5,063 nucleotides of DNA from positions 1-5,063 of the forward strand of contig JAJZLW010000095.1 of the NCBI GenBank assembly GCA_021850505.1. The letters are read 5' to 3'. The position numbers and the translations under genes are program-made. Position 1 is the first letter of the stretch, and each line of letters opens with the position of its first letter. Of this stretch, positions 2,709 through 5,063 are shown piece by piece. This DNA comes from Thermoplasmata archaeon. GTDB lineage: Archaea; Thermoplasmatota; Thermoplasmata; Thermoplasmatales; Thermoplasmataceae. The notes below the pieces were generated by a model. That model worked only from the letters and a program-made list of their open reading frames with translations. It was not told the DNA's origin and did no database searches.

Positions 2709-3971
2709 ATGAAGCATAAAGGACGAAAGGTATACATGGTTTCCGGCGGTGTAACTAAATTCGCAAAAGCAACTCCGGAAATGGATTTTAGACTGCGTGT
2801 GAAGAAGGCATTCGACTATGCTATGAATGACGTCGGGCTTGAATTGAGCGACATAGACGGTTCTGTAGCTTCATATTTTTCAGATCATTTTCAGAGGCAG
2901 CTGATGTCAGGTATAATGGTCCAGGATTATCTGGGTCTGACACCAAAACCCAGCAAAAGGGTCGAGGGCGGAGGCGCCACTGGCGGCCTTTCCTTCCAGA
3001 CAGGTTATGAGGAGGTCGCTTCCGGAAGGATGGACACCTGTGTTGTTTACGGCTTTGAATCAATGTCACATGTAAATACATGGAAGGGAAATGAGTTCAT
3101 AGCTCTCGCAAGTGATACCAACTTTGATTATCCGGTTGGCGGGTTCTATACGGGATATTATGCCATGATGGCTGTCAGGCATATGCATGAATTCGGAACC
3201 ACCGTTGAGCAACTTGCCAAAGTCTCGATCAAGAATCACGAGAACGCCCTTCACAATCCATATGCCCAGAGCCCCATGAAGCTTACAGTTGAGGACGTAA
3301 GGAAATCGCCGATGGTAGCATATCCCCTGACAAGGCTGGATGTTTGCGCAATGTCAGATGGCGCTGCCGTTGCAATACTCGCATCTGAAGAGAAGGCGTT
3401 TGAGATAACAAAGCATCCGATCGAAATAACAGGTATCGGTACCGGGACGGATACTATGAGGCTTGCAGACAGACCGTTTGGCAAGGTTCCACTTCTTCCA
3501 AATGAGAAGCCGTCAGACTACAAAGATCTGAAATACCCGGGGATCCATTCATTCAGGGCTGGGAGATCTGCCGCAAAGGAAGCTTATGAGGCAGCTGGCA
3601 TAACAGATCCGCTGAACGAGATTGATGCAATCGAGCTGCACGATGCATACACATCATCTGAGATACAGACCTATGAGGATCTTGGGCTGTGCAAATATGG
3701 AGAGGGCGGGCAGTTCATAGATGAGGGTAAACCCAAGCTTAATGGAAAGATTCCTGTCAACTTCTCAGGCGGCCTGCTTGCATGCGGTCACCCGGTTGGT
3801 GCAACTGGAATAATGCAGGGTGTATTCATGTTCTGGCAGCTTCAGAAGACGATCAAGAAACACTTCAAGGACGACAAGCTTCAGCTGAAGAATCCAAAAC
3901 GCGGGCTGATACATAGTCATGCGGGCACCGGAACTTATGTTACAGTATCCATCATGGAGGTGCCAAAATGA
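2709..3971 (+). CDS. Thiolase-superfamily (SCP2-type) protein lacking the nucleophilic Cys
   Basis: A 420-aa protein covering a full two-domain thiolase fold, of usual length for archaeal SCP2-type thiolases. Visible motifs: RKVYMVSGGVTKF (6-18, first strand); RVEGGGATGG (84-93), the nucleophile-loop region; GRMDTCVVYGFESMS (106-120); DVCAMSDGAA (211-220); IELHDAYTSSEIQTYEDLG (309-326); NFSGGLLACGHPVGATG (351-367); and HSHAGTGTYVTV (402-413). In thiolases the loop reads VEAACASGG; here the Cys position is Gly89 (codon at 2973-2975). H311 and H361 remain. Normal thiolases condense or cleave acyl-CoAs through acyl-Cys, so ordinary acetoacetyl-CoA thiolase activity is doubtful. It overlaps the DUF35 gene by 4 nt, and the two probably form a complex. 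An Ltp2-like aldolase or a non-catalytic partner are alternatives. The start at 2709 retains the first strand; M10 would delete it. Confidence 0.93.
   Translation: MKHKGRKVYMVSGGVTKFAKATPEMDFRLRVKKAFDYAMNDVGLELSDIDGSVASYFSDHFQRQLMSGIMVQDYLGLTPKPSKRVEGGGATGGLSFQTGYEEVASGRMDTCVVYGFESMSHVNTWKGNEFIALASDTNFDYPVGGFYTGYYAMMAVRHMHEFGTTVEQLAKVSIKNHENALHNPYAQSPMKLTVEDVRKSPMVAYPLTRLDVCAMSDGAAVAILASEEKAFEITKHPIEITGIGTGTDTMRLADRPFGKVPLLPNEKPSDYKDLKYPGIHSFRAGRSAAKEAYEAAGITDPLNEIDAIELHDAYTSSEIQTYEDLGLCKYGEGGQFIDEGKPKLNGKIPVNFSGGLLACGHPVGATGIMQGVFMFWQLQKTIKKHFKDDKLQLKNPKRGLIHSHAGTGTYVTVSIMEVPK
3956..3962 (+). promoter_or_regulatory. Strong Shine-Dalgarno site for the DUF35 gene
   Basis: GGAGGTG lies 5 nt before the ATG at 3968, inside the last codons of the thiolase-like gene. 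It is a near-perfect archaeal SD and fixes the DUF35 start at the ATGA overlap. It contrasts with the SD-less first gene of the operon. Confidence 0.8.
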
Positions 3972-4495
3972 CGATAAACCCCGATGCAAAGATGGAAGAG
4001 AGCCAGTCTGGGACTGAAGTTTACACGGTAGATCCACTTGTTGTCAAATCAACCTATTCGATCGACTACATACACAGTTTCGCACAGGACTCAGAGTTCT
4101 TCAGGGCACTTGGCAAGAAGAAACTGATGGGAAGCAGGTGCAAAAAATGTGGTTACAGATATGGAACACCAAGATCCCACTGCATGATGTGCGGCGCTGA
4201 AACCGAATGGATAGAATTGCCAAAAACCGGAAAAATACATTCGTATACAACATGTTATTTCGGTAGCGAAGTTTTCCTTCCACAGACTCCATTCAACCTG
4301 ATAATGGTTGAATTCGAGGGCATAGACTCTCTCTTCATGGCAAGGCTAATCGGTGCAGACCAGGATGATATGTATGTCGGCATGCCGGTGGTTGCAAAAT
4401 TCAAGAGACTGCAATCATTCAGTCCAACGGATGTTTACTTTGTCCCTGCGAAGGGCTCAGGAAGGAACGACCAGAAAGGGAAGAAAAAGAGATAA
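3968..4495 (+). CDS. DUF35 zinc-ribbon/OB-fold protein, thiolase partner (acyl-CoA binding)
   Basis: A 175-aa protein of the DUF35 (YqgB-free, ChsH2-tail-like) family. Domains: an N-terminal extension of about 30 residues (MTINPDAKMEESQSG...), a helical segment at about 33-52 (DYIHSFAQDSEFFRALGKKK), a rubredoxin-like zinc ribbon with C58-x2-C61 and C72-x2-C75 (GSRCKKCGYRYGTPRSHCMMCG), an OB-fold at about 84-160 (TGKIHSYTT through MPVVAKFKRLQSF), and a Lys-rich tail ending KGKKKR. Known DUF35 proteins sit beside thiolases: in archaea one bridges acetoacetyl-CoA thiolase and HMG-CoA synthase, and in steroid degradation the DUF35 domain of ChsH2 binds the aldolase Ltp2. The ATGA overlap with the thiolase-like gene and a strong SD indicate stoichiometric, coupled translation. 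The adjoining protein lacks the thiolase Cys, so its role here probably follows that enzyme, whatever its chemistry. Confidence 0.93.
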   Translation: MTINPDAKMEESQSGTEVYTVDPLVVKSTYSIDYIHSFAQDSEFFRALGKKKLMGSRCKKCGYRYGTPRSHCMMCGAETEWIELPKTGKIHSYTTCYFGSEVFLPQTPFNLIMVEFEGIDSLFMARLIGADQDDMYVGMPVVAKFKRLQSFSPTDVYFVPAKGSGRNDQKGKKKR

Positions 4496-5063
4496 ATGGT
4501 CGACAAGAGGGAAGCATTTTCCAACCGGGATAGAAATGTTTTCCTTATAACTGCAGACAGGGGCATTGATCGCGGTGCTCTTATTTCCAGGTATAGCAGG
4601 ACTGCATCACTTGATATTAGAGAGGTATACGACAAAGAATTCGCTGCAAACTCAGAAAGGGGTTCAGAGTTCTACAGGCGCGTATTCAGCGACTATGGCG
4701 ATGAGTCTGTAGCCGAGCTGGTTTTCGCTCAGGTAGGTGTGCAGGGTGTTTCAAATATTGTAAGTAAGATGATGGAAGACCTGCGCATTGGGCTATCTTT
4801 TATAGAAAAATCCTCCAGATATGTAAGATATGACAAAAAAGTAAATGGCAGATATCTCTATCTATCGGCGGATGAGGCAGGGATAAGTGGAAACCTGCAA
4901 ACAGAATATGATGATCTCTGCAGGGATCTTTTCACCTTCTACTCAGAATGTTATGGTCAAGTTACAGGATATTTTGAAAAAACCAATCCGATCGAGAATT
5001 GCGCATTCGCTAACAGGAAAGATTCCTCGGAATCCCTCTATTCAGATCTATCCGGAAACGAAA
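4496..5063 (+). CDS. ThyX-like (FAD-dependent thymidylate synthase superfamily) protein, 3' end outside window
   Basis: 189 codons are open from ATG 4496 to the window edge, with no stop. The sequence has the ThyX-like pattern of the long two-domain proteins (about 500 aa, from memory): SRYSRTASL (31-39), EFYRRVFSDYGDESVAELVFAQV (58-80), then SNIVSKMMEDLRIGLSFIEKSSRYVRYD (86-113). Canonical ThyX methylates dUMP with FAD, NADPH and methylene-tetrahydrofolate, using RHRxxSxNExSxRY. Aligned here, S101, E104, S106, R108 and Y109 are kept, but R-H-R becomes L96-R97-I98 and N becomes I103. So this N-terminal domain probably does not bind FAD/dUMP in the usual way; the missing C-terminal half may hold another domain. 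The ATG abuts the DUF35 stop (TAA then ATG, no gap) and has no clear SD, implying translational coupling. Family fairly sure; activity uncertain. Confidence 0.85.
   Translation, partial: MVDKREAFSNRDRNVFLITADRGIDRGALISRYSRTASLDIREVYDKEFAANSERGSEFYRRVFSDYGDESVAELVFAQVGVQGVSNIVSKMMEDLRIGLSFIEKSSRYVRYDKKVNGRYLYLSADEAGISGNLQTEYDDLCRDLFTFYSECYGQVTGYFEKTNPIENCAFANRKDSSESLYSDLSGNE

Follow-up and report, generated by a model that had tools for sequence, protein, structure and literature searches.

Thiolase-fold proteins acting together with a DUF35 protein are known from several systems, the closest being the aldolases Ltp2-ChsH2 (PDB 6ok1) and Sal-Shy (PDB 9myr) as well as the archaeal acetoacetyl-CoA thiolase/DUF35/HMG-CoA synthase system (6esq/6et9). 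According to a report on Sal, CtSal carries Gly at the position of the thiolase Cys, and the backbone of this Gly contacts the substrate hydroxyl in a modelled complex (PMC12329534). The same text assigns catalysis to Tyr302 and Cys304 of a YDCY motif in CtSal and to Tyr294 (of YDHF) and Tyr344 in TcLtp2, with Tyr344 corresponding to Gln352 of CtSal (PMC12329534).

The window analyzed here, the complete stretch of 5,063 nucleotides of contig JAJZLW010000095.1 from a Thermoplasmata archaeon, encodes a thiolase-fold protein of 420 amino acids (2709 to 3971, forward strand), whose intact ORF overlaps by 4 nt with that of a DUF35 protein (3968 to 4495, forward strand). Its best-matching model is NCBIfam NF004982 (PRK06365.1; 806.1 bits vs. 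a curated cut-off of 695), an equivalog named 'thiolase domain-containing protein', which gives no function. In the VEGGGATGG loop (residues 85–93, 2961 to 2987), Gly89 (codon GGC, 2973 to 2975) takes the position of the nucleophilic Cys, as claimed by the first-pass annotation, because phmmer aligns rvegggatggls of the window protein gap-free with rveaacasgsla of the M. thermolithotrophicus thiolase (6esq). Moreover, the HDAYT motif (residues 311–315, 3639 to 3653) places Ala313 where many relatives carry the second catalytic Cys of the SCP2/archaeal type (HDCF); HDAF also occurs in some Cys-89 relatives, e.g., BbsB and 7yvy. The thiolase fold and the His of the GHP motif, here GHPVGATG (residues 360–367, 3786 to 3809), are retained. 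In the AlphaFold model (mean pLDDT 92.8), Gly88-Gly89 are the first residues of a helix spanning residues 88–104. The possibility raised earlier that C111 might serve as a displaced nucleophile was rejected, as this residue sits in strand 110–118 and is Cys in only 108 of 121 sequences. Judged by its alignments, the protein is thus devoid of a thiolase's catalytic residues and predicted to be incapable of forming an acyl-cysteine intermediate. The earlier warning that acetyl-CoA acetyltransferase is a misleading label was justified; several sources name homologues acetyl-CoA C-acetyltransferase.

Position 89 is Gly in all 121 sequences comprising the window protein and its best 120 homologues, in the 120 best homologues of a paralogue (L148), and in 120 of 120 loci, which are related rather than independent; L053–L055 are near-duplicates, and L067 and L139, whose contigs both measure 111,497 nt, appear to be one contig counted twice. 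In 80 loci, the codon for Gly89 is GGA (31), GGC (23), GGT (16), or GGG (10); silent changes are frequent, while no replacement was seen. Because Gly is found throughout these three samples and is encoded by all four of its codons, Gly89 is neither chance nor error. A pseudogene was likewise rejected, in agreement with the first-pass annotation, since the window gene and its homologue in L001 share 80% identity at DNA but 95% at protein level, with a dN of 0.028 (dS was not computable by NG86, which returned −1, read as saturated), and four Gly codons are in use. Position 313 in 41 rows of the Gly clade is Ala in 36 and Ser or Pro in five, and none of these rows has Cys at either 89 or 313. 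With both cysteines lost under such strong constraint, a thiolase mechanism is therefore argued against. His361 is conserved in all 121 sequences, and several members (L059, L060, L104, L114–L117) carry Tyr at position 311, a natural His/Tyr exchange. In two further Gly-type proteins (L134 and L135), the HD motif is also without its His-Asp (IFAPY / LFTPY), while GHP and the DUF35 gene are kept.

Among archaea, the Gly clade occurs in Thermoplasmatota and Promethearchaeota, and it extends to several phyla of bacteria; proteins from Bacillota, Chloroflexi, Nitrospirae, Planctomycetes, and further bacterial genomes share 70–77% identity with the window protein. The clade is wider than the NF004982 model, whose cut-off many of its proteins do not reach. 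When 148 genomes of a single phylum were searched with P0193 (E up to 1e-60), one of them yielded a match, and its context was uninformative. No paper on this family was found by title in the open-access literature, which does not prove that none exists. The window protein belongs to a large, strongly conserved, and uncharacterised family sharing the exchange of Cys for Gly. The first-pass annotation had thus understated the case: its suggested survey of the Gly/Cys position reveals that Gly does not vary within a large clade spanning several phyla, and the second Cys is missing too.

In an IQ-TREE phylogeny calculated after removal of the motif columns and with an outgroup of classical thiolases, all 41 Gly rows form a single clade (support 100/99), while six Ltp2/Sal-like rows, all with Gly at position 89, form another (support 100/100). 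Joining the Gly clade with the Ltp2 group gave a p-AU of 0.49 (motif columns removed, outgroup included); with the motif columns kept, the Gly clade and the Ltp2/Sal rows fall on the same side of a branch (support 97/83). The remaining 18 rows carry Cys (11), Thr (3), Ser (2), or Pro (2) at position 89, two of the Cys rows being duplicates (L099/L197 and L100/L198 are the same proteins twice). A candidate Ltp2, L154, was rejected as an SCP2-thiolase type with Cys. Thiolase-like paralogues with Pro (L196, L202) or Ser (L205, L207) at the nucleophile position indicate that Cys loss recurs across the superfamily. Thermoplasmatales also possess a second thiolase-like protein linked to DUF35 (L199, L203, L204; VEASTASGG or IEASTASGA), another Cys-less type with Thr at the nucleophilic Cys position, HDSY, HDSF, or NDSY as HD motif, and GNP or GFP in place of GHP.

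The DUF35 protein of the window (175 amino acids) combines a zinc ribbon with an OB fold (zf-ChsH2 and OB_ChsH2_C), and its translation and PF12172 match place the four Cys of the ribbon (C58, C61, C72, and C75) at 4139 to 4192. In 113 of 120 loci, a DUF35 gene of the same orientation lies at most 30 nt away; three of the other seven loci are contig ends. The coupling to an intact DUF35 gene described in the first-pass annotation is supported, and the DUF35 partner characteristic of the aldolases is present. Both proteins may form a physical complex, and a 593-amino-acid fusion (P0212) of a Gly-type thiolase-like protein with zf-ChsH2 and OB domains supports the view that they act as one unit. 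The next gene of the window (4496 to 5063) is a Thy1 (ThyX) relative; members of this cluster are present in 33 of 81 sequences (the window and L001–L080), and L001 contains at 7794 to 9335 a full-length homologue of 513 amino acids, whose two Thy1 stretches suggest a tandem ThyX protein. The window further carries a tRNA-Gln (CTG) gene (1167 to 1239) and, on the reverse strand, an ORF of 134 amino acids (582 to 986) without Pfam or NCBIfam match, whose cluster is represented in 23 of these 81 sequences, the window counted among them.

For comparison of the active sites, a plasmid-borne Ltp2 homologue (L156, best match 6ok1, E 2.7e-75) and a Sal homologue (L157, best match 9myr) were aligned with the family. 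Residue counts along 6ok1 reproduce Tyr294 and Tyr344. By those along 9myr (offset 24), the second Gly in VDLGGA is CtSal Gly89, and it shares its column with Gly89 of the window protein. The Ltp2 homologue also has Gly in the nucleophile column. In contrast, the catalytic Tyr of the YDxF/Y motif (Tyr294/Tyr302) is aligned with His311, and neither catalytic acid is present: Ala313 occupies the column of His296/Cys304, and His361 that of Tyr344/Gln352. The analogy to Ltp2 drawn in the first-pass annotation therefore holds for the Gly, found in the Ltp2 homologue and in CtSal, and gains from dehydrogenase and MaoC genes beside some relatives, but it fails for the catalytic residues. Similarly, the HDAYT and GHPxGATG motifs, whose presence had been pointed out, are indeed kept but lend an aldolase no support, as His311, Ala313, and His361 replace Tyr294/Tyr344 and Tyr302/Cys304. 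His311 and His361 are retained in many true thiolases as well, so that both could be ancestral instead of adapted to a new role.

Gene neighbourhoods were tallied for genes within 4 kb in the 95 loci flanked on either side by 1.5 kb or more; 25 of 120 loci with less than 1.5 kb on one side and one of 12 control loci (L199) were left out. Gene calls were mechanical ORFs, part of which were scanned with Pfam or NCBIfam. Near the Gly gene, acyl-CoA dehydrogenases are found on the same strand in 20 of 95 loci (28 on either strand), AMP ligases or CoA-transferases in 26 (27), B12 mutases in 11 (12), MaoC in 3 by both ways of counting, ETF and enoyl-CoA hydratase in 2 each (3 each), and 3-hydroxyacyl-CoA dehydrogenase in a single locus (1). 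The rarity of the latter was dropped as an argument, since the controls have none either (0 of 11). These neighbours are concentrated in other Thermoplasmatota groups and in a group made up of bacterial members and a single Undinarchaeales archaeon, whose 26 loci account on the same strand for 14 dehydrogenases, 11 mutases, and 8 ligases or CoA-transferases; in two groups, the acyl-CoA dehydrogenases lie on the opposite strand, which slightly lowers the likelihood of the lyase readings given below. The window's own group, 37 Thermoplasmatales-type loci, is free of same-strand dehydrogenases, ligases, mutases, and MaoC over the 4 kb range; two of these loci have a dehydrogenase in the opposite orientation. 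The controls were thiolase-like paralogues with Cys (4), Thr (3), Ser (2), Pro (2), or Gly (1, L206, which groups with Ltp2). On either strand, the 11 tallied control loci contain no dehydrogenase, ligase, CoA-transferase, mutase, or MaoC, a difference favored by references for these five that stem mostly from Gly loci and, for MaoC, from one protein (L148), so that divergent genes may be missed; one enoyl-CoA hydratase and, in five loci, DUF35 were found.

Single loci illustrate the metabolic setting. In L138, the gene order is ligase, sigma-54 regulator (identified via its sequence cluster), ligase, short-chain-type acyl-CoA dehydrogenase, thiolase-like protein, and DUF35. A MaoC hydratase directly adjoins the gene in one paralogue group (L148, L149, and L186, three of three), an arrangement of MaoC, thiolase-like protein, and DUF35 recalling Shy (MaoC plus DUF35) with Sal. 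The neighbouring B12 mutases are probably of the isobutyryl-CoA-mutase type, which is marked by Phe/Gln. All ten mutase large subunits seen carry Phe/Gln, compared to Tyr/Arg in methylmalonyl-CoA mutase (1req) and Ile/Gln in 2-hydroxyisobutyryl-CoA mutase (4r3u). Overall, the neighbourhoods of the relatives resemble the steroid-aldolase modules of Ltp2 and Sal, and their dehydrogenase, hydratase, and mutase genes suggest a β-oxidation-like route in which a 3-hydroxy intermediate is cleaved without a 3-keto ester, like the substrates of the steroid side-chain aldolases. Genome G001, holding a copy 95% identical to the window protein, encodes three classical thiolases, two with a CxGGG motif (L213 and L216) and one (L209) which we take to possess the nucleophilic Cys as well; thiolysis therefore need not depend on the Gly-type protein. 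HMG-CoA lyase as the replaced enzyme was dropped, as it exceeded the cut-off in one of 18 family genomes and three of 14 control genomes; this comparison leaves the substrate uninformed.

The explanation we favor, although we put it just short of an even chance, is that the window protein is a DUF35-assisted acyl-CoA C–C lyase with an active site of its own, which performs retro-aldol cleavage of a short 3-hydroxyacyl-CoA, probably a branched one, or the reverse aldol addition. We infer reaction, substrate, and residue roles as follows. The substrate would be a 3-hydroxyacyl-CoA which cannot be oxidized to a 3-ketoacyl-CoA, candidate reactions being the conversion of 3-hydroxyisovaleryl-CoA to acetyl-CoA and acetone or of 3-hydroxyisobutyryl-CoA to propionyl-CoA and formaldehyde. 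His311, at the position of Ltp2 Tyr294, would deprotonate the 3-hydroxyl group, whose oxygen could find room and backbone NH contacts at the Gly88-Gly89 helix start; the C–C bond would then break, and His361, at the position of Tyr344, might protonate the resulting enolate. With a short branched acyl-CoA, both the mutase neighbour and the need for an aldolase would make sense, because the two candidate substrates cannot become 3-ketoacyl-CoAs. Presumably, Thermoplasma possesses a branched-chain 2-oxoacid dehydrogenase.

Such a lyase is consistent with the fixation of Gly89 without Cys at 89 or 313 in any of the 41 clade rows, with the Gly reported for the DUF35-dependent aldolase CtSal, with the match of His311 and His361 to the two catalytic Tyr of TcLtp2 (and Tyr at 311 in some members), with neighbours of relatives that are absent in the 11 controls, with Phe/Gln in the ten mutase large subunits, and with thiolysis probably being covered in G001. 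Against it stand the lack of either set of proven aldolase catalytic residues, a metabolic context drawn from relatives instead of the window's own group, search references stemming mostly from Gly loci, the presence of His311 and His361 in many true thiolases, a p-AU of 0.49 for kinship with the Ltp2 group, and the loss of His311-Asp312 in L134 and L135.

Alternatively, the protein could be a non-catalytic scaffold subunit which binds acyl-CoA and DUF35 and passes the substrate to a partner, e.g., an acyl-CoA dehydrogenase or ligase. A precedent cited in PMC12329534 is the archaeal thiolase/HMG-CoA-synthase complex, where DUF35 links two enzymes sharing a CoA site, and the neighbours indeed vary among groups, those expected being absent from the same strand in the window's group; however, His361 and Gly89 are invariant in 87 diverse rows, and the 70–77% identity between the archaeal protein and its bacterial counterparts exceeds what a scaffold is expected to need, which makes this explanation unlikely. 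Quite unlikely, too, is an acyl-CoA decarboxylase, in which the Cys-less fold would act on malonyl-, methylmalonyl-, or other 3-carboxy- or 3-ketoacyl-CoAs via a His oxyanion hole. While His361 is retained in 121 of 121 sequences and TbSLP, like Sal without the SCP2-thiolase cysteines, slowly decarboxylates malonyl-CoA (kcat 0.005 per s), this activity is absent in CtSal according to the same source (PMC12329534), no carboxylase was recognized among selected neighbours scanned with Pfam or NCBIfam, and the neighbouring mutases lack the Arg of methylmalonyl-CoA mutase. We consider acyl transfer or Claisen-type condensation without covalent acyl-enzyme, or a biosynthetic aldol addition, improbable: the same fold hosts acyltransferases such as PhlC, and adjoining ligases in relatives could provide acyl-CoA in either direction, but the related acyltransferase 9skm is a C88S variant by its title, which points to Cys there, and acyl-CoA dehydrogenase neighbours suggest catabolism. 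A true thiolase with another nucleophile, e.g., Cys213 (codon 3345 to 3347), is very improbable, since this residue, which presumably occupies the column of the pantetheine-contact Ser in classical thiolases, is Cys in all 121 near homologues but Ser (P0121–P0147) or Ala (L127, L129) elsewhere in the Gly clade, is Cys also in some Cys-89 thiolases and the Ltp2 homologue and hence no compensating change, and classical thiolases exist in a near genome.

Returning to the favored C–C lyase, a more far-reaching proposal is that the Gly clade has separately evolved an aldolase active site with a His/His pair, the third on the thiolase/DUF35 scaffold, and provides archaea and diverse bacteria with a short branched-chain acyl-CoA lyase cleaving 3-hydroxyacyl-CoAs beyond ordinary β-oxidation (or building them from small carbonyls, e.g., acetone or formaldehyde) without ATP or biotin; this we regard as possible but doubtful. 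When Gly-clade proteins are given names such as acetyl-CoA acetyltransferase, metabolic reconstructions acquire a thiolase reaction that is probably absent. Should the proteins prove to be lyases, they could close a gap in the short branched-chain acyl-CoA metabolism of their hosts and be a source of DUF35-dependent C–C lyases for small acyl-CoAs, some from thermophiles.

Compared with the known systems, the archaeal acetoacetyl-CoA thiolase/DUF35/HMG-CoA synthase system (6esq/6et9) possesses the nucleophilic Cys and the Cys of HDCF, both replaced in the window protein, and, unlike that system, the window contains no HMG-CoA synthase gene recognizable by Pfam or NCBIfam. The SCP2-thiolase-like TbSLP (PDB 5ab4–5ab7) is eukaryotic and carries a YDCF motif. 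In Sal-Shy, YDCY, Cys304, and Gln352 stand against HDAY, no Cys304 equivalent, and His361 in the window protein, while Ltp2-ChsH2 has Tyr294 and Tyr344 in place of His311 and His361 and belongs to a separate clade. Gly at the nucleophile position is common to both aldolases and the window protein. On the residues compared, the window protein fits neither the thiolase nor the Ltp2/Sal aldolase class; in kind, it most resembles the DUF35-dependent aldolases, with an active site of its own.
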